Below are positions 5,277 through 32,827 of a stretch of DNA of 36,690 nt, piece by piece (within the stretch, counting starts at the first letter, position 1; every line of letters begins with the position of its first letter). Source of the stretch: Spirochaetaceae bacterium (lineage in GTDB: Bacteria > Spirochaetota > Spirochaetia > SZUA-6 > Bin103); contig JAPPGB010000133.1 in the NCBI GenBank assembly GCA_028821475.1, forward strand, positions 1-36,690, read 5' to 3'. Under the pieces are notes generated by a model. It made no database searches and was not told where the DNA came from. It was given only the letters and a program-made list of their open reading frames with translations. The translations under genes and the position numbers were made by a program.

Positions 5277-5788
5277 GAACAACAGATCGGCGGTACCTGG
5301 CGGTACCTGGCCCGAGGTAGCTGCCACCCTCCGTGCTGCCTCCGGAAGAGAAATGGGGCGGGCGCGCGCCGCGATGTCGGATCGGATAGCTCCCCGGTCA
5401 GTTTCGCTGGAAGTCGCGGCATGTGCGCCCGCCCTGCTTTCATCATCGGCGCGGCCGCGGGGGCGTTGTAGCTTCTCTTTCGTCACCAAACCATGGACGA
5501 AGGAGGCCCGGAAGTGTTCGTTCAGTGTCTTGTTGGGAGCAAGGGGGCGCAGGCGAGCGCCCGCGCAGGAGTCGAACGCGGGCGCCGTGCCGGCTGTGCC
5601 GCGGCCAACCCCTGCCGCCGTGAGCGGCGCGCCGGTGGGGCGCGCCCCGTGGTAGCATCGATCAGGAATTGATAGTAGCCTTACCACATATCCGTTTTCG
5701 CGGTAATAGCTATTTTTTGCGTAACCGTGTGCGTAAACGTGCCAAGGCCCGGGTGGTGCTTGGATCGAGGACGCGAAGGAGAGACTAC
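5277..5788. other. Intergenic region, divergent acetyltransferase / kinase 1
   Basis: About 510 bp without a supported gene. Open frames exist on both strands but have no recognisable protein character. It holds two tandem copies of CGGTACCTGG (5291-5310) and an AT-rich stretch (about 5660-5735) that is the likely promoter zone for the kinase gene at 5789. No convincing -35/-10 pair could be fixed there. Confidence 0.5.
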
Positions 5789-8158
5789 TTGCATCAAGCC
5801 ATGGACCCAAACCAGGAACTCAAGGCGCTTCGCGAGCGCATCTCCACGCTCAGCTCCGCGATTCTGCGCATCAGCGCGACCCTCGACGTGACCACCGTCC
5901 TGCAGGAGGTCGTCGACAGCGCGCGCACTCTCACCGGCGCCCGCTACGGCGTGATCACTACCAACGACGAGCAGGGACAGTTGCAGGAGTACGTCAGCTC
6001 CGGCTTCACGGCGGAGGAGCACGCCGAGTTCGCGGCCTGGCCGGACGGGCCCAAGCTCTGGGAGCACCTGCGTGACCTGCCGGGACCGATACGCCTGTCG
6101 GACCTGCCCGCGTTCGTCCGCTCGCTCGGCTACTCCCCGGACCTGATGCGCTCGAAGACGTTCCAGGGAACGCCGATCCGACACCGCGGCATGCAGGTCG
6201 GCCAACTGTTTCTCGCCGAGAAGGAAGGCGCGCCGGAGTTCACGACCGAGGACGAAAAGGTACTCGTGATGTTTGCCTCGTTGGCAGCGACGGCGATCGC
6301 CAACGCTCGCACCCACCGCGACGAGCAACGCGCGCGGGCCGACCTGGAAGCGTTGGTCGAAACCTCGCCGATGGGCGTCGTGGTGTTCAACGCCGGAACC
6401 GGCCACCCGACGTGGTCCAATCGGGAGGCGCGGCGCATCGTGGAAAGCCTGCGCTCGCCGGGGCGTCCGGTCGAAGAGCTGTTGGAGTCCATCACGTGCC
6501 GGCGCGCGGACGGCCGCGAGATCGCCTTCGCCGAATTCTCGATGGCAGTGCAGTCCAGCAACATCGACACGGTGCGCGCGGAGGAGATCGTGCTCTCGGT
6601 TCCGGACGGGCGCAGCGTCAGGACTCTGGTCAACTGTACACCGATCCAGTCCGAGGAAGGCGCGGTAGAGTCGGTGGTGATCACCATGCAGGACCTGGCC
6701 CCGCTCGATGAGCTGGAACGCCTCCGCGCCGAGTTCCTCGGGATGGTGAGCCACGAGTTGCGAGCGCCGCTCACCGCCATCAAGGGCTCGGTCGACATCC
6801 TGTTGGAGGCGGCGCCGGAGCTCGACCCGGCCGAACGCCATGAGTACTTCCGGATCATCCATGATCAAGCGGAACGCATGCGCGGCCTCATCGGCGACTT
6901 GCTCGACGCCGGCCGCATCGACTCCGGCACGCTGTCGGTATCGCCCGAGTCATCCGAGGTGGCCGACCTGGTGGACCGGGCGCGCAACACGTTCCTGAGC
7001 GGAGGCGGCCCGCACACCGTGCTGATCGACCTGCCGCTCGACCTGCCACCGGTCATGGCCGATCGGCGACGCATCGTGCAGGTGCTGAACAACCTCCTCT
7101 CGAACGCCGCGAGGTGCTCTCCCGAGTCTTCCCCGATCCGGGTCGGCGCGGTGCGCCGCGGCTTTCACGTCGCCATTTCGGTTTCGGATGAAGGCCGGGG
7201 AGTGCCGCCGGAGCTGCTGCCGCGACTGTTCCAACGGGGCGCCGGCGGCGCCGGAAGCGGCGGGCTTCGCGACAAGGGCGGCACCGGCCTCGGGCTGGTC
7301 ATCTGCAAGGGACTGGTGGAGGCGCACGGGGGCCGGATCTGGGCCGAGAGCGACGGCGCCGGGCAAGGCGCGCAGTTCACGTTCACCGTGCCGGTGACCG
7401 AGCACGTCGACGCCGCCGGCTCGGCAGCCGTCGATCCTCGCCGCCCACCCCGGTCTCGGGCGTCGCAGGAACGCGCTCGCGTCCTGGTGGTGGATGACGA
7501 CCCGCAGACGCTGCGCTACGTGCGCGACGCGCTCACCGCCGCGCACTACTCGCCGCTCGTGACCGGTGACCACGCCTCACTGTCGCACATCATCCGCACG
7601 GAGCAGCCTCAACTTGTCCTGCTCGACTTGATGCTCCCGGGGACCGACGGCATCGAACTGATGGAACGCGTGCCGGAACTCGACGATCTGCCGGTCGTCT
7701 TCATCTCGGGGTACGGACGCGACGAGACGATCGCCAGGGCATTGGAGGCGGGCGCCGCCGACTACATCGTCAAGCCGTTCTCGGCGACGGAGTTGACGGC
7801 CCGAGTTCGGGCGGCGCTGCGCAGGCACGCCGAACCTGAACCGTTTGCGCTCGGCGAACTCGCCATTCACTACGAGCAGCGGCGGGTGACGGTCGGCGAG
7901 CGTGAGGTGGTGCTCACTGCGACCGAGTACGAGCTGCTGAGCACGCTGGCGCGCAGAGCGGGACGGGTCGTAACCTACGATGCGCTGCTGCGCCAGATTT
8001 GGGGCGAGCGCGACACCGGCGATGTCAACCTGGTACGCAACTTCGTGAAGAAGCTCCGGGCGAAGCTCGGTGACGACGCCGCGACACCAACCTGGGTGTT
8101 GAACGTGCGCGGCGTCGGTTACCGCATGCCCCCGCCGTCCGCGCCACTGCCACAGTGA
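5789..8158 (+). CDS. Single-chain two-component system 1 (GAF-PAS-HisKA-HATPase-REC-wHTH)
   Basis: This 789-residue protein holds a whole phosphorelay. An N-terminal GAF domain (about 30-180) is followed by a PAS domain (about 185-305), a HisKA domain with phospho-acceptor His322 in SHELRAP, and an HATPase with N-box NNLLSNA (434-440), G1 DEGRG (467-471) and G2 GTGLGL (498-503). Then come a receiver with acidic pair Asp569-Asp571, acceptor Asp613 and Lys662, and an OmpR/PhoB-type winged helix (about 690-780). All catalytic residues are present. It is soluble, with no membrane segment, so the signal is probably cytoplasmic and sensed by GAF/PAS. The TTG start is chosen because AAGGAGA (5776-5782) lies 6 bases upstream and the resulting N-terminus has the same length as paralog 3. 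An ATG at 5801 is the alternative. Confidence 0.88.
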   Translation: MHQAMDPNQELKALRERISTLSSAILRISATLDVTTVLQEVVDSARTLTGARYGVITTNDEQGQLQEYVSSGFTAEEHAEFAAWPDGPKLWEHLRDLPGPIRLSDLPAFVRSLGYSPDLMRSKTFQGTPIRHRGMQVGQLFLAEKEGAPEFTTEDEKVLVMFASLAATAIANARTHRDEQRARADLEALVETSPMGVVVFNAGTGHPTWSNREARRIVESLRSPGRPVEELLESITCRRADGREIAFAEFSMAVQSSNIDTVRAEEIVLSVPDGRSVRTLVNCTPIQSEEGAVESVVITMQDLAPLDELERLRAEFLGMVSHELRAPLTAIKGSVDILLEAAPELDPAERHEYFRIIHDQAERMRGLIGDLLDAGRIDSGTLSVSPESSEVADLVDRARNTFLSGGGPHTVLIDLPLDLPPVMADRRRIVQVLNNLLSNAARCSPESSPIRVGAVRRGFHVAISVSDEGRGVPPELLPRLFQRGAGGAGSGGLRDKGGTGLGLVICKGLVEAHGGRIWAESDGAGQGAQFTFTVPVTEHVDAAGSAAVDPRRPPRSRASQERARVLVVDDDPQTLRYVRDALTAAHYSPLVTGDHASLSHIIRTEQPQLVLLDLMLPGTDGIELMERVPELDDLPVVFISGYGRDETIARALEAGAADYIVKPFSATELTARVRAALRRHAEPEPFALGELAIHYEQRRVTVGEREVVLTATEYELLSTLARRAGRVVTYDALLRQIWGERDTGDVNLVRNFVKKLRAKLGDDAATPTWVLNVRGVGYRMPPPSAPLPQ

Positions 8159-8250: not shown

Positions 8251-10116
8251 TCATCGATCGTCCGGCACCGCCATTCGGTAGCCGACCCCGCGTTCGTTGA
8301 AGATGTACGTCGGGCATGCCGGGTCATCGCCCAGCTTGCCGCGCAGCTTCTTCACGAACGTTCGCACCGGTTCGGAACCGGCGGTCACCCGTTCTCCCCA
8401 GATCTGCCGCAGCAGCGAGTCGTAGGTCAATACGCGCCCCGCGTTGACCGAGAGCACGCGCAGCAGCTCGTACTCGGTCACGGTCAATCGCACGGTACGG
8501 CCTGCGACGGTCACTCGCCGCATCTCGTAGTCGATCGCCAGGTCCGCTACCAGGAATGGTGCGGGGCTGTTCCGCTTGCGCAGGGCGGCCCGGACGCGCG
8601 CCGTCAACTCCGTCGCCGAGAACGGCTTGACGATGTAGTCGGCGGCGCCCGCCTCCAATGCCCTGGCGATCGTCTCGTCCCGTCCATAGCCGGAAATGAA
8701 GATGACCGGAAGGTCGGCCAGCGCGGGGACGGACTCCATCAGTTCGATGCCGTCGACATCCGGGAACACCAGGTCGAGCAGTACCAACTGTGGCCTTCTT
8801 GTGCTGATGAGGTGCGACAACTCTCGCGGATCGCCGGTCACCGACGTTGCGAATCCGGCACTGACCAGGGCTTGACGGACAATGCGCAACGTCAGCGGGT
8901 CGTCATCGACAACGAGTATCCGGGCACGCTCCTCACCGCGAGGCGAAGCCGCACACGGCGGCGAGGTTCGCCCTCCGGTGTCTTCGACCGCTGGCAGCGT
9001 GAATATGATCCGCGTCCCCCGGCCCGGCCCCAGGCTCTCGGCGCGGATGCGGCCGCCGTGGGCCTCCACCAGCCCCCTGCAGACAACCAGGCCGAGGAGT
9101 CGGTCGCGGCCCCTCGTTCCCCTGCCGCCGCCGGTGGCAGCGTGTTTCCGGAACAGGTGGGGCAACCGGTCGGGCGCCTCGCCCGCGCCTTCGCCGGTTA
9201 CCGAGATCGCCAGCTCAGTTCCTTCCTGCAGCGCGGTGACCCGAATGGGCGAAGACTGCGGGGAGTTGCCGGCCGCGTAGGAGAACAGGTTGTTCAGGAC
9301 TTGCGCGATGCGCAGCTCGTCGGCCATCACCCGCGGCAGGTCCGGCGCCAGGTCGATCTTCAGGACGTGCCGGGCACCGCTGCTCAGGAACGTCCGCCTC
9401 GCATGGTCCACCAGCGTGGCAGCATCAACGAGTTGCGGGTCCACGGACAGCGTGCCGGTTTCGATACGCCCGGCATCGAGCAAGTCCCTGATGAGGCCGT
9501 CCATGTCATCGGCCTGTTGTGCGATGATTCGGAAGAACTGCCGCACCTCGGCCGGGTCTACGATCCCCAAGTTGCCGAGCACGGTAGCGGTCAGGCCCTT
9601 GATGGAACTCAGCGGTGCCCGCAACTCGTGGCTCACCATGTCCAGGAACTCCGCCCGCCGGCGCTCCAACTCGTCCAGTGGCCCGAGGTCCTGCATCGTC
9701 ACGACCACCGACCGGACCGTGCTGTCCTCGGTCTTGATCGGCGTCGCGTTGATGAGTGCCCTGACGCTCCTTCCGCCGCGTACCGAGAGCGCGATCTCTT
9801 CGGCGCTCACCGCGGCGGCGCTGTTCAGGACCACCGCCAACGGGAACTGGTCGAACGCCACCTCCCGCCCGTCGGCGAACCGGCACGTCGTTGCCGGCAA
9901 CAGCTCTTCCACGGTCTGCCCGGGGTCGAGCAAGCCCGAAACGATCCGCCTCGCTTCCCGATTGCAGGACACCGGATGGCCGGTTCGGGCGTCGAGCACC
10001 ACGACTCCCACCGGCGAGGTATCGATCAACGTCTCCAGGTCAGCCCGGCTCAGGCTCGGTATACGGTCCGGTAGCGCTCTGTTCTGCAGGCTGAGTTCTT
10101 CTCTGCTCTTCATCAT
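8251..10116 (-). CDS. Single-chain two-component paralog 2, no GAF, degenerate ATPase
   Basis: This 621-residue protein is homologous to the two flanking proteins but lacks the GAF domain. It starts almost directly at PAS (about 25-145), then HisKA with His163 in SHELRAP, an HATPase-like domain, a receiver (Asp403-405, acceptor Asp448, Lys497) and an OmpR-type winged helix (about 525-618). The ATP-binding part is altered. The Asn of the N-box SNAA is Tyr280, the G1 Asp is Gly308 (GEGAG for DEGSG), and the G2 GxGLGL motif is replaced by RDRLLGL (about 337-343). The phospho-acceptors are kept. It may therefore be a kinase-dead partner phosphorylated by a paralog, or a regulator under relaxed selection. 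It starts at ATGATG, with GGGAG some 15 bases upstream as only a weak ribosome site. It is divergent from the TetR gene. Confidence 0.85.
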   Translation of the reverse strand: MMKSREELSLQNRALPDRIPSLSRADLETLIDTSPVGVVVLDARTGHPVSCNREARRIVSGLLDPGQTVEELLPATTCRFADGREVAFDQFPLAVVLNSAAAVSAEEIALSVRGGRSVRALINATPIKTEDSTVRSVVVTMQDLGPLDELERRRAEFLDMVSHELRAPLSSIKGLTATVLGNLGIVDPAEVRQFFRIIAQQADDMDGLIRDLLDAGRIETGTLSVDPQLVDAATLVDHARRTFLSSGARHVLKIDLAPDLPRVMADELRIAQVLNNLFSYAAGNSPQSSPIRVTALQEGTELAISVTGEGAGEAPDRLPHLFRKHAATGGGRGTRGRDRLLGLVVCRGLVEAHGGRIRAESLGPGRGTRIIFTLPAVEDTGGRTSPPCAASPRGEERARILVVDDDPLTLRIVRQALVSAGFATSVTGDPRELSHLISTRRPQLVLLDLVFPDVDGIELMESVPALADLPVIFISGYGRDETIARALEAGAADYIVKPFSATELTARVRAALRKRNSPAPFLVADLAIDYEMRRVTVAGRTVRLTVTEYELLRVLSVNAGRVLTYDSLLRQIWGERVTAGSEPVRTFVKKLRGKLGDDPACPTYIFNERGVGYRMAVPDDR

Positions 10117-11002: not shown

Positions 11003-13336
11003 CTACTCGTCGCCCGGTGCGGCCATGCGGTAGCCGACCCCACGCTCGTTGAAGATGTAGGTCGGGGTTGCCGAGTTGTCGCCGAGCTTGCCGCGCAGCT
11101 TCTTCACGAACGTCCGCACCGGTTCGGTATCCTCCCGCTGTCCCCAGATCTGCCTGACCAGTGATTCGTAGGTCAATACCCGGCCCGCGTTGACCGAGAG
11201 CACCCGCAGCAACTCGTACTCGGTCGCGGTCAGCCGCACCGGTCGGCCGGCCACGGTCACGTGGCGCTTCTGGTAGTCGATTGCCAGCTCCGCCACCACG
11301 AACGGGTCCGGCTTGGTCCGCCTGCGCAGCGCGGCTCGGACCCTCGCCGTCAGCTCCGTCGGCGAGAACGGCTTGACTATGTAGTCCGCGGCTCCCGCCT
11401 CCAGAGCCCTGGCAATCGTCTCCTCACGTCCGTAGGCGGACAGAAAGATGACCGGAATGTCCGCCATCTCCGGGATCGATTCCATCAACTCGATGCCATC
11501 CATGCCAGGCAACACCAGGTCGAGCACCAGGAGCTGGGGCCTTCTTGTCGTGATCATGTGCAGCGCCTCCTGCGGATCTCCGGTCCCCGTAGCCGTGTAG
11601 CCGGCCGCGGTGAGAGCGTCCCGGACGTAATGCAGCGTCAGCGGGTCGTCGTCCACGACGAGTATGCCGGTACGCTTGCGGCCATCGCGAGTCAGACGCG
11701 ACCGCAGCGGTGAGGCGCCATCGCCGGCCTCGTCGACTACCGGAAGCGTGAAGGTGAACCGCGTCCCTCGGTCCGGCCCGGGACTCTGGGCCCGGATGCG
11801 CCCTCCGTGGGCCTCCACCAGCCCCTTGCAGATGGCCAGCCCGAGACCGGCCCCCCGCCTGCGCGCTCCTCTGTCGTCGACAACGGTGTGCTTGCGGAAC
11901 AGATGCCGCAGCCGATCCGGCGTCACCCCACTGCCTTCGTCGGACACCGAGATCGCTACCTCGGCGCCATCGTGCACCGCCTCGACCCGAATCGGACAGG
12001 ACTCGGGAGAGTGCTGCGCCGCGTTGGAAAACAGGTTGTTCAGGACTTGTACGATCCGTCGCTTGTCCGCCATCACCGGCGGCAGGTCCACCGGCAGGTC
12101 GATGTTCAGCACGTGCCGAGCGCCGCCGCTCAGGAACGTGCTCCGCGCCTGGTCCACAAGCGCCGTCACCTCCGCCGGTTCAGGGTCCACCGAAAGCGTG
12201 CCCGTGTCGATGCGTCCGACATCGAGCAGATCTCTGATGAGGCCGTCCATGTGATCGGCCTGCTGCTCGATGATCCGGAAGAACTGGCGTACCTCGGCCG
12301 GATCCGCGACCCGCGAGTTGCCGAGCGCGGTGGCGGCCAGCCCCTTCACGGAGCTCAACGGTGCCCGCAGCTCGTGGCTCACCATCCCCAGGAACTCCGC
12401 CCGCTGCCGCTCCAGCTCCTGCAGTGGCCCCAGGTCCTGCATCGTCACCACCAATGACTGAACCGCATCGCCCTCGAACTTGATCGGCGTGGCGTTGATC
12501 AGCACCGTGACACTGCGGCCGTCGCGCACCGACAGCACCACCTCTTCGGCGCGGACCGTGGGGGCGTTGCTGAGCACCGTCGCCAGCGGGAACTCGTTGA
12601 GCGAGACTTCCTGCCCGTCGGCGAGCCGGAAGATCAACACGTGCAGCAGTTCCTCCACGGTCTGGCCCGGATCGATCAGCCCGGCCACGATCCGCCTTGC
12701 CTCCCGGTTGATCGACACCAGGCGGGCGGTTCTGGCGTCGATCACCACGACCCCCACCGGCGAGGTGTTGATCAGCGCCTCCAGGTCGGCCCGCACGCGC
12801 TGCTCGGCACGGTACGTGCGAGCGTTCGCGATCGCCGTCGCCGCCTGCGCGGCGAACATTACCAGCACCTCCTCGTCCTCCTTGGTGAACTCCTGTCCGC
12901 CTTCCTTCTTGCCGAGGAAAAACGAGCCGGCCTGCACGTTCCGATGGCGAATCGACGTTCCCAGGAAGGTGTCCACGAAAATGACCTCCGACGAGAAACC
13001 GAGCGAGCGCACGTAGCCGCGCAGGTCGGACACCCGCAGCGGCGCGGGCAGATTTCTCAAGTGCTCGAACAGCCGCAGCCCGTCCGGCCACTCGATCAAC
13101 TCGCGCTCCTCGTCCGCGGTGAGGCCAGAGGTCACGTAGTCGACCCGCCCGGCGTCGTCCAAGGCGGTGATCGCGGCGACGCGGGCACCGGTAAGGGTGC
13201 GGGCGTTTTCCGCGATCTCCTTCAGGACGGTGTCGACGTCGAGGCTTGCGCTGATGCGTAGCACCGCGCCGCTCAGGTCCGAGATGCGCTTCCGCAGCGC
13301 CCCGATCTCCCTCGTGAGTTCATCGGTACTCTTCAT
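11003..13336 (-). CDS. Single-chain two-component system 3 (GAF-PAS-HisKA-HATPase-REC-wHTH)
   Basis: This 777-residue protein has the same domain order and length as paralog 1: GAF (about 30-180), PAS (about 185-303), HisKA with His321, HATPase with NNLFSNAA (433-440), G1 DEGSG (466-470) and G2 GAGLGL (495-500), a receiver with acceptor Asp606 and Lys655, and a C-terminal OmpR-type winged helix. All catalytic residues are intact. Its PAS-kinase-receiver part is closer to paralog 2 (for example IDPGQTVEELL, LSSVKGL, DPAEVRQFFRII) than to paralog 1, suggesting 2 and 3 arose by the later duplication. The ATG at 13336 follows AGGGGAGGG at a good distance. The gene is divergent from the thiamine operon. 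Confidence 0.9.
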   Translation of the reverse strand: MKSTDELTREIGALRKRISDLSGAVLRISASLDVDTVLKEIAENARTLTGARVAAITALDDAGRVDYVTSGLTADEERELIEWPDGLRLFEHLRNLPAPLRVSDLRGYVRSLGFSSEVIFVDTFLGTSIRHRNVQAGSFFLGKKEGGQEFTKEDEEVLVMFAAQAATAIANARTYRAEQRVRADLEALINTSPVGVVVIDARTARLVSINREARRIVAGLIDPGQTVEELLHVLIFRLADGQEVSLNEFPLATVLSNAPTVRAEEVVLSVRDGRSVTVLINATPIKFEGDAVQSLVVTMQDLGPLQELERQRAEFLGMVSHELRAPLSSVKGLAATALGNSRVADPAEVRQFFRIIEQQADHMDGLIRDLLDVGRIDTGTLSVDPEPAEVTALVDQARSTFLSGGARHVLNIDLPVDLPPVMADKRRIVQVLNNLFSNAAQHSPESCPIRVEAVHDGAEVAISVSDEGSGVTPDRLRHLFRKHTVVDDRGARRRGAGLGLAICKGLVEAHGGRIRAQSPGPDRGTRFTFTLPVVDEAGDGASPLRSRLTRDGRKRTGILVVDDDPLTLHYVRDALTAAGYTATGTGDPQEALHMITTRRPQLLVLDLVLPGMDGIELMESIPEMADIPVIFLSAYGREETIARALEAGAADYIVKPFSPTELTARVRAALRRRTKPDPFVVAELAIDYQKRHVTVAGRPVRLTATEYELLRVLSVNAGRVLTYESLVRQIWGQREDTEPVRTFVKKLRGKLGDNSATPTYIFNERGVGYRMAAPGDE

Positions 13337-13407
13337 CAGGCCCTCCCCTTTCTGTCGACAGATCCACAATACAGACATAATATATCGCGAGCATACACAC
13401 TAATTCC

Positions 13408-23746: not shown

Positions 23747-24709
23747 TCACTCGCCGGCCAGGGTGGCGCGGGCCAAAATCTGTTCGGCTACCTCCATGGT
23801 CTTGATGCAGTCGCGGAAGGGGGAGGTGGTCACGTCGCGGCCGCTCTTGATCGAGTCGATGAACTCGCGGTTCTTGGCGCGGTGGCCGCCATATACGAAC
23901 CGTTCGTCGCTGCCGGCCACCGCCCGCGTGTCGTAGGCCACCCCCTCGCGGTCGCCGCCGGCGTACAGCCGGGCGGTGCCCTCCACCTCGGCGTCCACGT
24001 ACACCGAGGGCGCGTGCATCTGCACCCGGAACACGCGGCGCCCGCTGGTCCAACTGTTGATCACGAATCCGGTCGCGCCGCTGTCGAAGTGCAGCATGGC
24101 CCCGATCCAGTTGATGTCCGGCGTGCCGATCCGCCGGCAGCGGCTGTCCACGCCGGTCACCTCGCCGCCGCACATCCAGCGGACGGTGTCGATCGAGTGC
24201 GTGCAGTCGTCCATCATGTGGTCGCGGGAGTGGTAGCGCGGCTCCGGCTCGCACTTGTAGAACTCGCACACCGCGTGCGTAATCGGGCCGCGGCGCAGGC
24301 ACTCGTCGCGCATCCGCACCAGGAGCGGGGCGCTGCGCCGCTGGTGGTTGACCTGGGTAATCACGCCCCGCTTCTTCGCCAGGTCCGCCAGCACGATCGC
24401 CTGGTGGCGCGTGAGCCCCATCGGCTTCTCGATATACAGGTTCAGGCCCTGCTGCAGGCACCAGACCCAGACGTCGAACATGATGTTCGGCTGCCCGATC
24501 GCGTACACGCCGTCGGGCGCCACCTCCTCCACCATCCGGCGGTAGTCGGTAAAGCGCCGCTCGATGCCGTACCGGTCGGCGGTGGCTGCCAGCAACTCCT
24601 CGTCCAGATCGCACACCCCGGCGAACTCCACGTCGTCGAACGAAGCCAGCGACGGATAGTGCACGCTGTTGGCCATGCGCCCCGCCCCGATCATCGCCAC
24701 CCGTACCAT
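23747..24709 (-). CDS. Gfo/Idh/MocA-family oxidoreductase
   Basis: This 320-residue NAD(P)-dependent dehydrogenase has an N-terminal Rossmann fold with VAMIGAGRMA (4-13), the acidic residue after strand 2 in CDLDEE, and the EKPMGLT motif near residue 94 that includes the catalytic Lys. The C-terminal half has the alpha/beta domain with the conserved HSIDTVRW helix near residue 172. Members oxidise or reduce sugars, inositols or their derivatives. The substrate is not decided. It lies on the same strand as, and downstream of, the sugar ABC genes at 28649-31946, from which it is separated by the inserted segment, so it may have been their last operon gene. Confidence 0.88.
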   Translation of the reverse strand: MVRVAMIGAGRMANSVHYPSLASFDDVEFAGVCDLDEELLAATADRYGIERRFTDYRRMVEEVAPDGVYAIGQPNIMFDVWVWCLQQGLNLYIEKPMGLTRHQAIVLADLAKKRGVITQVNHQRRSAPLLVRMRDECLRRGPITHAVCEFYKCEPEPRYHSRDHMMDDCTHSIDTVRWMCGGEVTGVDSRCRRIGTPDINWIGAMLHFDSGATGFVINSWTSGRRVFRVQMHAPSVYVDAEVEGTARLYAGGDREGVAYDTRAVAGSDERFVYGGHRAKNREFIDSIKSGRDVTTSPFRDCIKTMEVAEQILARATLAGE

Positions 24710-24798
24710 TCGCCGTCGATCCTATCACCCGCCGAGCCGCGTCGCACGCGGTACGCCGCCGATTCGGGCGACGCGCTCCGCCGGCGCGCCGCGCGGGC

Positions 24799-24822
24799 CC
24801 GCTGCTACTTGAGGCCGGTGAG
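24799..24822. repeat. Outer direct repeat, left copy (24 bp)
   Basis: Identical over 24 bp to 28643-28666. The sequence is the last codons and stop of the downstream permease plus 8 bases beyond the stop (minus strand: CTCACCGGCCTCAAGTAG, then the 3' flank). It marks the left edge of the inserted segment. Confidence 0.9.
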
Positions 24823-24945
24823 CGCAGCCAGCGACTGGCCCGCCCCGATCCGGAAGTCAGTGAACGAGGTCTCGTAGATCTTCAGCACGATGGTCAGCGC
24901 GTGCCGGCAATCGGCCCGCCGAAGTAGGTGCCGCCCCTGCCTGCC
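24805..24945 (-). pseudogene. Chimeric remnant of sugar ABC permease genes
   Basis: On the minus strand this piece encodes LTIVLKIYETSFTDFRIGAG plus QSLA, identical to the end region of permease 1 (29534-30457), fused directly to ALTGLK-stop, the end of permease 2 (28649-29530). The nucleotide match 24827-24899 to 29613-29685 is 70 of 73. Upstream (24910-24945) similarity goes on but with small indels that break the frame. It is what is left of a duplicated or recombined transporter operon at the edge of the insertion. Confidence 0.85.
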
Positions 24946-24992
24946 GGGTCGCGGCCCACGCGGACCAGTCCCCGGGCCCGTCCGACCAGACT

Positions 24993-25010
24993 GCGCAGAG
25001 TTGCCGGCAC
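24993..25010. repeat. Inner direct repeat, left copy (18 bp, 16/18)
   Basis: GCGCAGAGTTGCCGGCAC, matching 28489-28506 (GCACAGCGTTGCCGGCAC) at 16 of 18. It lies just before the promoter of the two-gene module and the partner lies 6 bases after its last stop codon, so the pair brackets the module exactly. Confidence 0.7.
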
Positions 25011-25032
25011 GACCGCGACGCGACTCGGATGC

Positions 25033-25060
25033 TTGACATTGCCGGCAGCGCGAATAGGAT
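25033..25060 (+). promoter_or_regulatory. Promoter of the unknown two-gene module
   Basis: TTGACA (25033-25038), 16 bases, TAGGAT (25055-25060). The -35 is consensus. Transcription would start near 25067, giving a leader of about 90-145 bases depending on the start of the first gene. It lies inside the repeat-bounded segment, so the module carries its own promoter. Confidence 0.6.
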
Positions 25061-25157
25061 TTCACAGCAGGTTTTCGAGTGGTGACATCGTTGTGCGTGG
25101 TATTCGCCCAGGTGATGACTCGTCCAATGGCGAAATAGGAATCGCGCTGAACGACAG

Positions 25158-26123
25158 ATGCATTTCGCGAGCCCCGCCTTGAACCGCTTGATGGCTGCAC
25201 GTGGAGGTCCTGTGGAGTCCGCCGAACAGACTAACCTTTGTCTGGAGGAACGCGTCAGCGGCTCCCGGCAAGCTCGTTACGAGAGCATGATGGGCACGCC
25301 CCATAACTGGACAGATTGGCAGAAAGCCCACTTCCGCTACGTGCAGGAAGAGGTCCGTGGGCGCAGTCCGTTGAGTGCGGCGTTTACGCCCGGCGAGCCA
25401 TCGCTCAGATCTCGAATAGAGCCAAACCAGTATCTTTATCGTGTCGAACGGATCGACCGGTTGCTCCGGAACTTCGGCACGACATCCGGTGTGTCCGTTG
25501 GAGTATCTGACCTCAACGATTGGATATCGGATCGTAACGCCGCCAGTACGGCAACGACAGCGGCTCCCGCGATTGCCTCCTCTTCCCCGGTGACCGCGCT
25601 CGATGAGTTGACCGAGTTGTTCAACCACGGACGAGACGGTCGGCCGACCTTCGTCGCGTGCGAGGCCGAGTTCCCCGGATTGGATCGGCGGCGTAACTGG
25701 GCGGAGCACATGTGCGAGAGGTGCGGTCTTGCTCACTTTTACCAGAGCAAGGACGTGATACTCGCCTTGTTTCGTTACCGGGTGCAGGAGGTGCTGGACC
25801 AAACGAAGCACCTTGGCGCAGCCGCCGCGCGGTTCGCGGCGCCGACGGTGATCGACCAGGAGATGTCGAACGTGTACTTCACCGCGCCGCGCGGCATCGG
25901 GCGGGGCCACGCGGTCGGCCTGTCACCGGCAAGCGGCTGCAGTCACCTTGCCGCCGAATTGATTCACGTTCGGATCGACTACAGTTCGCACCATTGGGTT
26001 GCCGTCGATACACTGAACAGGCGTTCCCTTTCGTCGACCACAGTCGCGTCACTTCGTGACTCGCACCTGCATTGCATACGCCGCGTCCACGGGCTTCCGA
26101 CCTATGGAAAGGGCTGCATCTGA
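25158..26123 (+). CDS. Unknown protein A of the two-gene module
   Basis: I do not recognise this protein (321 residues from ATG 25158). It appears to have two domains: an N-terminal part (about 1-127) with a Trp/Tyr-rich helix (TPHNWTDWQKAHFRYVQEE) and a C-terminal part (about 147-321), joined by an Ala/Ser/Thr linker (128-146). The C-terminal part has a Cys pair Cys186-x2-Cys189 (MCERCGLAHFY), further Cys at 168, 261, 306 and 320, and several His, so a metal site is possible. There is no signal peptide or membrane segment. Starts at ATG 25191 or GTG 25212 are possible, and the last is preceded by GGAGGT. Its stop overlaps the next start (TGATG), so both proteins are made together. Base composition is visibly less GC-rich than in the neighbours. 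Confidence 0.7.
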   Translation: MHFASPALNRLMAARGGPVESAEQTNLCLEERVSGSRQARYESMMGTPHNWTDWQKAHFRYVQEEVRGRSPLSAAFTPGEPSLRSRIEPNQYLYRVERIDRLLRNFGTTSGVSVGVSDLNDWISDRNAASTATTAAPAIASSSPVTALDELTELFNHGRDGRPTFVACEAEFPGLDRRRNWAEHMCERCGLAHFYQSKDVILALFRYRVQEVLDQTKHLGAAAARFAAPTVIDQEMSNVYFTAPRGIGRGHAVGLSPASGCSHLAAELIHVRIDYSSHHWVAVDTLNRRSLSSTTVASLRDSHLHCIRRVHGLPTYGKGCI

Positions 26124-28483
26124 TGAGCATCTACGAACGAGACCATGATGAAGGCCGTGATCCCTTCGCGGTGTGGGGCCAGGCGTTGCTCAGGGAACCG
26201 GACGACGCCCTCGACCGGATACTGTCCGGTGCTGGCGGACGCGGATCGCAGCGGCGCGCTGAACCGGATGACTTTCTGTCCGATCTCCTCGCAAACCCGG
26301 CTCACCAGGGGAATCTTGCGCGGTTGACGAAAGGCCTGGACAAGGCGTTGCTGCGATGGATCGAGGCCCGGTCCGGGTGGTCTCCAACGCGCATCGTCGA
26401 GTTCGGCCCGCGCGCCTACGCGGCGCAGATGGCGGACGCACTGGCGGTCGTCGCGCGATTGTCCCTGACCGAGACGGCGGGCGAACTGATAAGGAATCAC
26501 GTCGTGTGGGACGATCGGTTCGACGCGCTGCGCCGCCCCGGCGACATTGACCTGCTGAGGGAATTCGACTTGGTGCTGGCCACGCATCAGACCGATATGC
26601 GGTTCGTCCCGCGCTGGTTCGCGGCCTGCGAGGAGGCTGCGTGGAGTAGTCCCTCTTGGCAGACGCGCCTCACTATTGGTCTTCTCGGCTTGCGCAAGCT
26701 CCCCGCCACGATTGGCACGGAGCCGGAGATGATGCAGGCAACCGCCTTGGCGCGATTTGCTGCGTTGGGGCTTGCCCGCGGGATGGATTCCGATCTGGTG
26801 GAGCGCGCGTTCAGGCAGCGAGCGGGTGCGATGACCACCCTGTATCCTCGCGATGTCGGGTATTGGCAGCGGCTATGGGGTGAGGTGCTCGCTCATCTTT
26901 GCGGCGCGTCGGACTCGAGCGTCGCGCGACTGAGCAGTTGGCTCGGTATTGCCATGGTCTCCGACAATGGGACAGCGACGCACCGGGCAAAGCAGCCGCA
27001 AGCTTCCAACGGACGCGCGGAACTTCCTGAATACCGTAGACGGGAGTGGCTCGAACAGGACATTCGCGACACGTCGTATGTGGATCCACACCTCTTTGAC
27101 AGCGTTCGCGGGTTGATTCGCGACCACTGGCGCTACGCGTTCGCCTCGGGACAGAGTTACTACGCCGTTCGTACTACGGCAAGCCTGTGCAATCTGATTC
27201 TGCGGTCCGATGCTAATGAACAACAGGTCGAGCAGATCCACCCATGGGCCCTGCAAGCCGTTGAAGCGGAACCGGGAAACCCCTACACGTGGGATCTTTG
27301 GGCAAAAGTGCTCTCCGTATTGGGGCACGTCGATGCCGCGCTCTCGGTGCGATGGGAATCGATCCGCCGATTCCCCCAGAACGGCGTGCTCCGCAATTCG
27401 TTGGCCTACCTGCTGGCGAAGCAGGATCGCACGACTCTGGCCGAACATCTCCTGCGTGAGACCATGAAGGACTTCCGAGACGACCCATTCTGCCGGAGCA
27501 TCCTCGCCAATCTGCTGATCCGGGCCGAACGCGAAGGGGAGGCGGAGCATCTGCTGGAGGAGACGACGCGAGAGTTTCAGCGCGACACCGTGAGCCGGCA
27601 CACTTTGGCAATGTTGCTGTGGCGGCAGGGTCGCCAGCGCGAAGCTGAGAGCGTGATGCGTGCACTGCATGCAATGGCCCCCGACGATGTTCATGTCGGG
27701 CGGCTGGCGGAACGCATTCGGGCGCAGCGACATATCTCGGCGGCATTCGCCGAGTCCGAACTGAACAGCATCTACCAAGGTGCCGGGATCCGCGGTGGTC
27801 TCGACGCTTCGGCGGCACATGGCACGGAGGCACGAACTTCGTGGCCGTGGCGGGGCGAGTCCCGACCGGCGGACGAACAAACCGGCACCCTCGGCGACGG
27901 GTCGACCGTAGCGGCCTACTTGTCCCGGCTGGAGTCTCGAACCGGTTTGCTGGAACGGTTCTTCGCATCGCCCGAAGCTGACCCCGGGAAGCCGAGCGGC
28001 GAAGTGGCCCACCACGAGTGTACGTCGGATCTGGCCCTGGTGGCAGCGCACCGAGCCGGCTTGCTGGACGAAGCCAACCGCCGGAAGGAGCTTCACACCT
28101 GGATTGAGGCTCATCCTTCTTCGTACAGTGTCCGGTTGCTGCTGGTGTGGCGCGGAACCAGCTCCCGCGGGCCGGACAGCGACGCCTTGCGCGCGATCGA
28201 GCGGGAGTTTCCGGAACATCGCGAGTGGAACGAGTGGTTGAGCTACGCATTCAATTCGAGGGACCACGGCGGATTTCCGAAGAAGATGAACAGGGATGGT
28301 CCGGACTCCTGGGCGAGCCGATTGGTTGCCGTGTATCCGTCCGCGACCACGCAACAAGGTGACGCCCCGGTACGCTACGTTCCAGGCGCGCGGAGACGGC
28401 TGATGGAGGACATCGCATTTGCCAACGCCGAACGAGCCGTGCCGAGCATCGGTGCGAACCTTTCGACTTCGGCGCTCCCGTAA
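26123..28483 (+). CDS. Unknown TPR protein B of the two-gene module
   Basis: This 786-residue cytoplasmic protein has a large helical N-terminal region (about 1-370) of no recognised family, then about four tetratricopeptide repeats (386-521; for example NPYTWDLWAKVLSVLGHVDAA and NLLIRAEREGEAEHLLEE). A linker (about 545-610) follows, then a C-terminal helical region (about 610-786). TPRs usually bind protein partners, so it may be a scaffold or sensor for protein A. No nuclease, protease, NTPase or membrane motif is visible. The ATG at 26123 overlaps the stop of gene A; GGAAAGG lies about 10 bases upstream. Codon use is more mixed than in the flanking genes, which fits acquisition by transfer. 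Confidence 0.75.
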   Translation: MSIYERDHDEGRDPFAVWGQALLREPDDALDRILSGAGGRGSQRRAEPDDFLSDLLANPAHQGNLARLTKGLDKALLRWIEARSGWSPTRIVEFGPRAYAAQMADALAVVARLSLTETAGELIRNHVVWDDRFDALRRPGDIDLLREFDLVLATHQTDMRFVPRWFAACEEAAWSSPSWQTRLTIGLLGLRKLPATIGTEPEMMQATALARFAALGLARGMDSDLVERAFRQRAGAMTTLYPRDVGYWQRLWGEVLAHLCGASDSSVARLSSWLGIAMVSDNGTATHRAKQPQASNGRAELPEYRRREWLEQDIRDTSYVDPHLFDSVRGLIRDHWRYAFASGQSYYAVRTTASLCNLILRSDANEQQVEQIHPWALQAVEAEPGNPYTWDLWAKVLSVLGHVDAALSVRWESIRRFPQNGVLRNSLAYLLAKQDRTTLAEHLLRETMKDFRDDPFCRSILANLLIRAEREGEAEHLLEETTREFQRDTVSRHTLAMLLWRQGRQREAESVMRALHAMAPDDVHVGRLAERIRAQRHISAAFAESELNSIYQGAGIRGGLDASAAHGTEARTSWPWRGESRPADEQTGTLGDGSTVAAYLSRLESRTGLLERFFASPEADPGKPSGEVAHHECTSDLALVAAHRAGLLDEANRRKELHTWIEAHPSSYSVRLLLVWRGTSSRGPDSDALRAIEREFPEHREWNEWLSYAFNSRDHGGFPKKMNRDGPDSWASRLVAVYPSATTQQGDAPVRYVPGARRRLMEDIAFANAERAVPSIGANLSTSALP

Positions 28484-28488
28484 CGGCC

Positions 28489-28506
28489 GCACAGCGTTGC
28501 CGGCAC
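28489..28506. repeat. Inner direct repeat, right copy (18 bp)
   Basis: GCACAGCGTTGCCGGCAC, 16 of 18 identical to 24993-25010. It starts 6 bases after the last gene of the module. Confidence 0.7.
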
Positions 28507-28642
28507 ACCGGTTAAGTCCGGTTGCCGGGCGCCGTTGACGTAGTGTTGCACTGGCAGGAGCGCCGGCAGGCCCTCGTGCGCGGCGCGCCCGGCGCGTTCG
28601 ATGAGCGGGCGGTGTTCACGCCCACCGTGATGGTGACCGAGG

Positions 28643-28666
28643 CCGCTGCTACTTGAGGCCGGTGAG
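28643..28666. repeat. Outer direct repeat, right copy (24 bp)
   Basis: Identical to 24799-24822. Here it is the true 3' end of the intact permease 2 gene (stop codon at 28649-28651). Confidence 0.9.
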
Positions 28667-29530
28667 GGCGATGCCGCGTACGAAGTAGCGCTGCGAGAAG
28701 AAGAACACCAGCAGGATCGGCACCACCGCCATGGTCGCCGCCGCCATGCGCGCGGCCGGCTCCTGCGCGAACTCCGCGGTCAGCACCGACAGCACCTGCT
28801 CGATCAGCATCTTCTTGCGCGAGTTGAGAATGATCAGCGGCCACAGGAAGTTGTTCCAGGCCCCCAGGAAGGCGAAGATGGTAATGGTGCCGATCGCCGG
28901 CTTGATGTTCGGCACCACCACGTGCCAGTAGCGCCCGAGCACGCCGCTGCCGTCGATGCGGGCCGCGTCGAGCAGGTCGTCCGGAATGCTCTTCACATTC
29001 TGCCGGAAGAAGAACACCGCGAACGGGGTGATGATCGACGGCAGCACGATGGCGGCGTGCGTGTCCACCAGCCCCAGGTCGCTCATCAGCAGGAACAGCG
29101 GCACCATCTCCGACTGGAACGGGATGATCATCGTCACCAGGATCAGCGTGAAGCACAGCTCCCGGAAGCGGAACCGTCCCTTCTCGAAGATGTAGCCGGC
29201 CACCGAGCAGAACAGGAGCTGCGCCAGCACAATGTAGAGCGTGGTGTAGAACGTGTTCCAGTACGCCCGCCCCAGCGGAATCACCTCGAACACGCGCAGG
29301 AAGTTGTCCAGCGTGACCGTCTGCGGGATCAGCGTGGGCGGGAACTTGAACATCTCGCTCTGCGGCTTGATGGCCGAGGCGATCATCCAGTAGAACGGCG
29401 TGATGTAGATCACCGCCACCACCCCCAGCACCAGGTAGGTGACCATCCGCCAGGGTGAAAGAGATGCCCGCCCAACGGTCCGTGCTGCGCGGACAACGTC
29501 CTGTTCGAAGCGGGGGATCTCGGTGCTCAT
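28649..29530 (-). CDS. Sugar ABC transporter permease 2 (MalG-like, CUT1)
   Basis: This 293-residue membrane protein has six predicted segments and the EAA-loop DDLLDAARIDGSGVLGRYWH (about residues 186-205) that docks on the ATPase. The opening TPFYWMIASAIKPQSEMF and the ending RYFVRGIALTGLK are typical of MalG-type permeases of the CUT1 sugar family. The start codon lies 2 bases past the stop of permease 1, so they are co-translated. No ATPase gene (MalK-type) is in the cluster; CUT1 systems often share one encoded elsewhere. Confidence 0.93.
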   Translation of the reverse strand: MSTEIPRFEQDVVRAARTVGRASLSPWRMVTYLVLGVVAVIYITPFYWMIASAIKPQSEMFKFPPTLIPQTVTLDNFLRVFEVIPLGRAYWNTFYTTLYIVLAQLLFCSVAGYIFEKGRFRFRELCFTLILVTMIIPFQSEMVPLFLLMSDLGLVDTHAAIVLPSIITPFAVFFFRQNVKSIPDDLLDAARIDGSGVLGRYWHVVVPNIKPAIGTITIFAFLGAWNNFLWPLIILNSRKKMLIEQVLSVLTAEFAQEPAARMAAATMAVVPILLVFFFSQRYFVRGIALTGLK

Positions 29531-29533
29531 CGC

Positions 29534-30457
29534 TCAGTAGTCATAGTCGAAGCGCTTGAATGCCTTGCGCTGGATGGTGGTGATCACCACCACGATGGCG
29601 GTCAGCACGAACGCCAGCGACTGGCCCGCCCCGATCCGGAAGTCGGTAAACGAGGTCTCGTATATCTTCAGCACGATGGTCAGCGTGCTGTTCATCGGGC
29701 CGCCGAAGTAGGTGCCCCCCTGCTGGCCCATCACGAACACCTGCGTGAACACCTTGAACGCCCCGATCGTGTTGACCACCACCACCAGCAGCGTGATCGG
29801 CGTCAGCAGCGGAATCGTCACCCGGCGCGCCACCTGCCAGGCGCTCGCCCCATCCACCCGCGCGGCGTCGTAAAAGTGCTCGGGAATCGTTTTCAGGCCC
29901 GCCATGAAGATAACCAGGGCGAACCCCATCTCGCGCCACACGTTCATGATGATGATCGAGGACAGCGCGTAGCGGGTGTCGACCAGCCAGCCGACCTTGC
30001 CGATGCCGACCAGCGACAGCGCCCAGTTCAGCAAGCCCAGATCGCGGTGATAGATCCAGATCCACAGTTGCGACAGCGCCACCACCGACACCACCACCGG
30101 CATGAAGTAGATGGTGCGCAGCACCACCGAGCCCCTGCCCAGGCGGTCCAGGAGCAGGGCGAAGAACAGCCCCAGCAGGGTGTCGCCGACCACGTTGCCT
30201 ACCACGTAGATCGAGGTGTTGGCGATCGACCTCAGCGAGCGCTGGTCGGTGAACGTGTCGATGTAGTTGTCGATGCCGACGAACGAGAACGCGCCGGTCA
30301 GCAGGTCGTACTTGTTGAAGCTGACGAAGAACGCGAACAGGGTGGGATAGAAGTGGCGCAGCGCGAAGTACGCCATCAGCACCGCCACGATCACCCAGGT
30401 GGTGATCAACTCCCGGTTCAGACGGCGGCTCCGGTCGTGTTTGACGGCAGTGCTCAT
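29534..30457 (-). CDS. Sugar ABC transporter permease 1 (MalF-like, CUT1)
   Basis: This 307-residue membrane protein has an N-terminal cytoplasmic lead (MSTAVKHDRSRRLNRE), six predicted membrane segments and the EAA loop EHFYDAARVDGASAWQVARR (about 206-225). The YPTLFAFFVSFNKYDL and FVGIDNY segments are typical of MalF/UgpA-type permeases. The ATG at 30457 follows CGGAG. It lies between the binding-protein gene and permease 2. Part of its 3' region is duplicated at 24827-24945. Confidence 0.93.
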   Translation of the reverse strand: MSTAVKHDRSRRLNRELITTWVIVAVLMAYFALRHFYPTLFAFFVSFNKYDLLTGAFSFVGIDNYIDTFTDQRSLRSIANTSIYVVGNVVGDTLLGLFFALLLDRLGRGSVVLRTIYFMPVVVSVVALSQLWIWIYHRDLGLLNWALSLVGIGKVGWLVDTRYALSSIIIMNVWREMGFALVIFMAGLKTIPEHFYDAARVDGASAWQVARRVTIPLLTPITLLVVVVNTIGAFKVFTQVFVMGQQGGTYFGGPMNSTLTIVLKIYETSFTDFRIGAGQSLAFVLTAIVVVITTIQRKAFKRFDYDY

Positions 30458-32070: not shown

Positions 32071-32130
32071 ACCTTTTGGGATGCGCGCGGGAATGTTGAT
32101 GTATAAATGTTATCATGCCAGAATGATGTC

Positions 32131-32373
32131 ATGGTGCGGACGCAGATCCAGCTTCCGGATGCGCTGTACGAGGAAGTGAAGCGCGTAGCGCGCGAGCGGG
32201 AGATGTCGCTGGCGGAAGTGGTGCGCCGCGGCGTCGAGTACATCACGCAGGTGTACCCGCCGCTGGCGGACGGAGAGCCGTGGTGTCCGCCGGAGCCAAG
32301 CGACCTCGGCCCGTTCAAGGCGCCGGAGGAGGATTGGCGGCTGATCGTGAACGACCCCGCCCCGGACGGTTGA
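32131..32373 (+). CDS. Ribbon-helix-helix antitoxin (VapB type)
   Basis: This 80-residue protein begins MVRTQIQLPDALYEEVKRVAREREMSLAEVVRRGVEY, a clear ribbon-helix-helix DNA-binding fold. The Pro/Trp-rich, acidic tail (about 45-80, EPWCPPEPSDLGPFKAPEEDW) should bind the toxin. The ATG at 32131 has no Shine-Dalgarno; an ATG at 32107 would add 8 residues but overlaps TATAAA (32102-32107), a possible -10 element. The toxin starts 4 bases after its stop. Confidence 0.82.
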   Translation: MVRTQIQLPDALYEEVKRVAREREMSLAEVVRRGVEYITQVYPPLADGEPWCPPEPSDLGPFKAPEEDWRLIVNDPAPDG

Positions 32374-32377
32374 CGGC

Positions 32378-32827
32378 GTGCTGGCCATCGACACCAACCT
32401 GCTGGTGTACGCGCAAAACACCCGCGCCCCGCAACACGACGCCGCGCGGGCGTTCGTCACCGGCTGCCGGGATCGCGAGATCGTCATCTGCGAACTGGTG
32501 CTGGTCGAACTGTACCTGGTCTTGCGCAGTGCGGCGATCGTCTCCCGTCCGCTTGGCGCGGCGGAGGCGGCCGCCGTGTGTACCCGCTACCGCAACAACG
32601 CGCGTTGGCGCCTGGTCGAGTGCGCCCCGGTGATGGGTGACGTATGGCGGCGCGCGGGCGGCGCCGGGTTCGCACGGCGCGAGATCATCGATACCCGGTT
32701 GGCGCTGACGTTGCGCCACCACGGTGTCACCGAGTTCGCCACGGCGAATACGCGGCACTTCGAAGAGTTCGGATTCTCGCGCGTGTGGAACCCGGTGGCG
32801 GCGGCAGGTGCGGAGCCGAACGCGTGA
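32378..32827 (+). CDS. PIN-domain ribonuclease toxin (VapC family)
   Basis: This 149-residue PIN protein has Asp5 (MLAIDTN), Glu44 (LVLVELYLVL), Asp105 (REIIDTRLALTL) and Asn124 (TANTRHFEEFGF) at the metal-site positions. The fourth position being Asn is common in this subgroup. The GTG at 32378 lies 4 bases after the antitoxin stop. Its TGA overlaps the GTG start of the large nuclease-helicase gene (GTGA), so toxin and repair gene are translationally coupled. The two toxins in the window are not close paralogs. Confidence 0.87.
   Translation: MLAIDTNLLVYAQNTRAPQHDAARAFVTGCRDREIVICELVLVELYLVLRSAAIVSRPLGAAEAAAVCTRYRNNARWRLVECAPVMGDVWRRAGGAGFARREIIDTRLALTLRHHGVTEFATANTRHFEEFGFSRVWNPVAAAGAEPNA

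Follow-up and report, generated by a model that had tools for sequence, protein, structure and literature searches.

Organization of the A/B locus

The analysis concerns one 36.7-kb contig, referred to as the window, from a 5.7-Mb genome in 183 contigs. It carries two plus-strand genes, called A and B, with the following features at and around them:

23747-24709, minus strand: Gfo/Idh/MocA oxidoreductase gene, left flank; its ortholog in a genome of the same genus (G002) shows 81% DNA identity
24799-24825, minus strand: left copy of the outer 27-bp repeat, permease-2 3' end
24827-24940, minus strand: decayed copy (114 bp) of the permease-1 3' region (29613-29723), ~90% identical with small indels
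24993-25014, plus strand: left copy of the inner imperfect direct repeat, GCGCAGAGTTGCCGGCACGACCG
25033-25060, plus strand: promoter-like site TTGACA-16-TAGGAT, 5' of A
25158-26123, plus strand: gene A, 321 aa, ATG start at 25158
26123-28483, plus strand: gene B, 786 aa, ATG start at 26123
28489-28510, plus strand: right copy of the inner repeat, GCACAGCGTTGCCGGCACACCG, just 3' of the B stop
28546-28650, plus strand: GH43 glycosidase remnant, 105 bp, codons ~72-105 of the G002 gene
28643-28669, minus strand: right copy of the outer repeat, formed by the 3' end of intact permease 2, on the side of its stop codon

A preliminary description had proposed two genes joined by TGATG in this segment, and the open reading frames bore this out, with a one-base overlap of A and B within that motif. 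For A, translation is as likely to begin at GTG 25212 (303 aa), which has GGAGG just 5' of it, as at the ATG at 25158. The length of each frame was compared with 500 dinucleotide shuffles of the segment. The B frame exceeded the longest frame (536 codons) in 500 of 500 shuffles. A frame of at least 321 codons arose in 77 of the 500, placing the length of A alone within chance, and a second frame of at least 321 arose in 4 of the 500. The coding order GC3 > GC1 > GC2 was present in all three 300-bp blocks of A and in most 300-bp blocks of B. Since length alone is insufficient, A is counted as a gene on this GC1/GC2/GC3 pattern and its coupling to B, and its standing as a gene is weaker than that of B.

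The segment had also been described as lower in GC than its neighbours. This did not hold for total GC (A, 61.3%; B, 63.7%), which is level with the adjacent permeases (62.5-63.3%), but it held for GC3, at 0.71 in A and 0.73 in B against 0.94 in the Gfo/Idh and permease genes, 0.92 in the binding protein and 0.95 in the sulfatase. The true compositional anomaly of the pair is GC3 and not total GC. A and B are real genes and look acquired. A promoter-like site does exist at 25033-25060, where a promoter of the pair's own had been proposed, but the number of such sites is within shuffle expectation (0.6 ± 0.7 per shuffle); the promoter and terminator of A/B remain putative.

Elsewhere in the window, three hybrid sensor kinases are encoded at 5669-8158 (plus strand), 8251-10116 (minus strand) and 11003-13378 (minus strand). 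Each combines HisKA, HATPase, receiver and OmpR-type DNA-binding (Trans_reg_C) domains in a single polypeptide, an entire two-component pathway in one chain.

Comparison with the sister locus

In window orientation, the G002 locus (L038) reads Gfo/Idh (minus), a complete GH43 gene (plus; PF04616, E 8.7e-13), a permease-2 remnant and VapBC. The window order is Gfo/Idh (minus), the A/B segment, the GH43 remnant, permease 2, permease 1 and the binding protein (the last three minus), and VapBC. The window's GH43 remnant matched the G002 gene at 83% over 105 bp by blastn and at 72% over 32 aa by tblastx. Pairwise alignment placed one segment breakpoint at ~24757, with the GH43 start codon of G002 following 13 bp later, and the other at ~28546, at about codon 72; about 3.79 kb in the window replaces about 226 bp of G002. 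A second join, at a shared short word (GCT/CTACT), deleted the remaining GH43 up to the permease-2 stop codon. In G002, the permease-2 3'-end remnant is 143 bp long (L038 8552-8694) and 96% identical to window 28645-28786; VapBC is 84% identical to window 32095-32827.

Because GH43 occupies this place in G002 and a 105-bp remnant of it persists in the window, the segment does not sit inside one operon but covers the front of a GH43 gene on the opposite strand. The preliminary view that it splits one sugar operon was rejected, since in G002 a divergent GH43 gene separates Gfo/Idh from the remnant of the permease. The wider proposal of an acquired two-gene unit otherwise finds support in GC3, in absence from congeners and in the replacement relative to G002. 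A and B are absent from the two same-genus genomes compared. In the simplest account, GH43 and the permease operon would both have been present in the common ancestor, the operon then being lost in G002 and GH43 in the window lineage.

Three further observations concern this neighbourhood. At 96% identity, the G002 permease-2 remnant clearly exceeds the flanking genes (81-84%), and the rest of the ABC operon is missing from G002 at L038. The VapBC-type toxin-antitoxin pair (RHH and PIN; window 32131-32827, plus strand) occupies the same place in G002. Between Gfo/Idh and the sulfatase, G002 has an ATP-binding/HTH-type regulator-like gene (L038 10889-11971; named by eye) that is absent from the window.

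Repeats at the segment edges

The segment had been called repeat-bounded. The outer direct repeat was confirmed (32 nt at 91%, its 24-nt core being identical), but it is not a simple boundary repeat, its left copy being fused to the decayed permease-1 copy. By its sequence, the outer repeat is debris of a duplicated, partly deleted permease region, which rules it out as a target-site duplication or recombination site. The inner repeat, with GTTGCCGGCAC exact, brackets the promoter-like site, A and B. When the two edges, picked after the repeat was seen, were shuffled 2000 times, a repeat as good arose 3 times. The 11-mer GTTGCCGGCAC occurs 16 times in the genome against about 8 expected from a composition-based estimate; these numbers are of the same order, so the 11-mer is not a genome-wide element.

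The A/B locus contained no transposase, integrase, tRNA or Rfam RNA. No clean repeat or target-site duplication was present in the segment, the ~226 bp of the G002 locus being replaced instead, and inspection by eye revealed no integron attC. A transposon or integron cassette was rejected, as the segment holds neither transposase or integrase nor a clean repeat.

Sequence relationships of proteins A and B

B had been described as a 786-residue protein with central TPRs and unrecognised flanks, and the profile searches agreed. The TPRs span about 200 residues (aa 345-545). Pfam TPR_19 (PF14559) matched whole B at E 1.9e-6 and 28.5 bits (cut-off 25), and its central piece at E 2.2e-9 and 37.9 bits over three stretches. 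As several TPR motifs exceed the curated cut-off, B belongs to the TPR protein superfamily. The TPR-S family PF20308 is a sensor family linked to NTP-dependent conflict systems; against it, the central piece reached 20.2 bits, below the 27.6 cut-off, with E 9e-4. PADLOC returned a generic TPR model at 1e-3 and one further model at E 0.019. The best PDB sequence match was LbcA (7rqf; E 5.8e-8, B aa 388-533). Family and PDB searches recognised nothing in the flanks (aa 1-340 and 550-786). The N-terminal 345 residues had no credible relative in 393 genomes of the phylum, and matches of whole B in 97 relatives were confined to the TPR region. A weak match of the N-terminus in L068, to an amidohydrolase-like frame, was dismissed as chance. 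The N-terminal part (1-340) is probably helical. Single-sequence AlphaFold2 gave a nearly all-helical model of low confidence (pLDDT 44.5), and Foldseek on it returned unspecific helical-repeat proteins (TM < 0.3), which were not used.

Protein A likewise remained unrecognised, as first described. Its C-terminal half carries a CxxC pair (HMCERC). No family match was obtained in Pfam, NCBIfam, PHROGs, PADLOC or PDB, none in Pfam or PADLOC when A was split in halves, and no enzyme, catalytic or toxin family was recognised in profile searches. No relative emerged from tblastn of plasmids and phages or from peptide-pattern scans of genome contigs and viral contigs; matches in the 393 phylum genomes were at chance level, and the C-terminal half had no credible relative in 395 genomes of the class. 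Weak matches elsewhere (SufC antisense, FliJ, GlmS-like and others) proved to be chance on inspection. A KamA-like assignment, from a weak match in L014, was rejected: the profile gave 2.2 bits, 11 of 2000 shuffles of A scored as high, and the match to the N-terminal region of KamA (lysine 2,3-aminomutase) was not beyond shuffles. Single-sequence AlphaFold2 yielded an unusable model (pLDDT 32). In the profile searches, A had no family and B generic TPRs only.

No recurrence of A or B was found in the other genomes searched. The pair is likeliest lineage-restricted, given the lack of a credible relative of A or of the non-TPR N-terminus of B among the roughly 390 genomes sampled from the phylum. 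Outside the phylum, the search comprised exact 8-residue patterns and tblastn of plasmids and phages, which would miss a relative of 30% identity; "orphan" here means orphan within what was searched. As no relative of either protein was found, co-occurrence and transfer of the pair are not directly demonstrable.

Possible origin and role of the A/B pair

Our leading explanation, which we place a little short of an even chance, is that A and B form a lineage-restricted accessory operon that was illegitimately recombined into the locus and is made as one transcript, that B binds A, and that a conflict or stress role is the most plausible. As observed, the two coupled genes have a foreign codon composition, and their segment (~24757-28546) takes the place of the GH43 start and first ~70 codons; the rest of GH43 is deleted to the permease-2 stop, and the left edge keeps fused debris of both permeases. 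The pair would have arrived by illegitimate recombination. B would be a soluble helical TPR solenoid that most likely binds A, and A may be a smaller client, effector or adaptor. We can only infer the function of the pair; a conflict or stress function would be typical of patchily distributed acquired operons.

A defence role for A/B is possible. The proposal of a defence or conflict module gained no positive support: PADLOC gave a generic TPR model only, nothing recurred elsewhere, and next to the pair lie sugar genes and a VapBC of ancestral origin, with no defence-specific match among the neighbours tested. An anti-phage or toxin-antitoxin-like module, with A as a toxic effector that the TPR sensor B holds or triggers, is in our judgement rather unlikely. 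An acquired, coupled pair of a small protein and a large TPR protein with patchy distribution fits it, as do the PF20308 score of the B TPR piece, below the curated cut-off, and the generic PADLOC score, although such matches are what any TPR protein yields. A belongs to no recognised catalytic or toxin family, no defence genes lie around, and the VapBC at 32131-32827 is ancestral, being present in G002 also. We give little credence to the more specific idea that the two genes make up a defence or conflict system not yet described, A having a new effector fold and B being a TPR sensor with new flanking domains.

The carbohydrate transport and degradation genes nearby suggest another reading, a pair of accessory genes with a regulatory or metabolic task (TPR adaptor and client enzyme) in a carbohydrate or stress niche with no conflict role, and TPR proteins serve very many assemblies, LbcA of Pseudomonas among them. 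However, these genes are ancestral and stand on different strands or in different operons, and A has no recognised enzyme family; we regard this reading as rather unlikely as well. It seems quite improbable that the pair is a decaying, non-functional passenger, left over from a larger acquired island and no longer expressed. Gene debris lies all round (GH43 and permease fragments), the promoter-like site is not significant and the A frame length is near chance, but B is intact over 786 codons and the coding GC pattern marks both genes.

Comparison with the sister genome allows the arrival of this lineage-specific pair to be placed, the broken GH43 gene recording what stood at the site before. 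A new defence pair would be the larger pay-off, and depends on relatives or a phenotype.

Comparison with known systems

The codon anomaly, absence from relatives and broken target gene are shared with an ordinary insertion of an accessory operon or genomic island into a carbohydrate locus. Unlike such an insertion, the A/B segment has no integrase, tRNA or clean repeats, and its edges are rearrangement debris. A further comparison is with conflict systems that depend on NTP and have effector-associated domains (eLife 2020;9:e52696, PMC7159879). With the TPR-S sensor family linked to such systems, the pair shares the idea of a TPR sensor beside a small effector or adaptor. Membership would call for an associated NTPase and a recognised effector in the operon; such domains are absent from both A and B, and the neighbours are sugar genes. 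Nor did the pair match a known anti-phage system, A having no PADLOC match and B no defence-specific model. B can be likened to LbcA (PA4667), a TPR protein that partners the protease CtpA of Pseudomonas aeruginosa. The match covers the repeat region only, the partner genes are unrelated, and LbcA is a lipoprotein partner (PDB entry name), whereas no signal peptide is evident by eye in B; the likeness is that of a partner-binding TPR solenoid.
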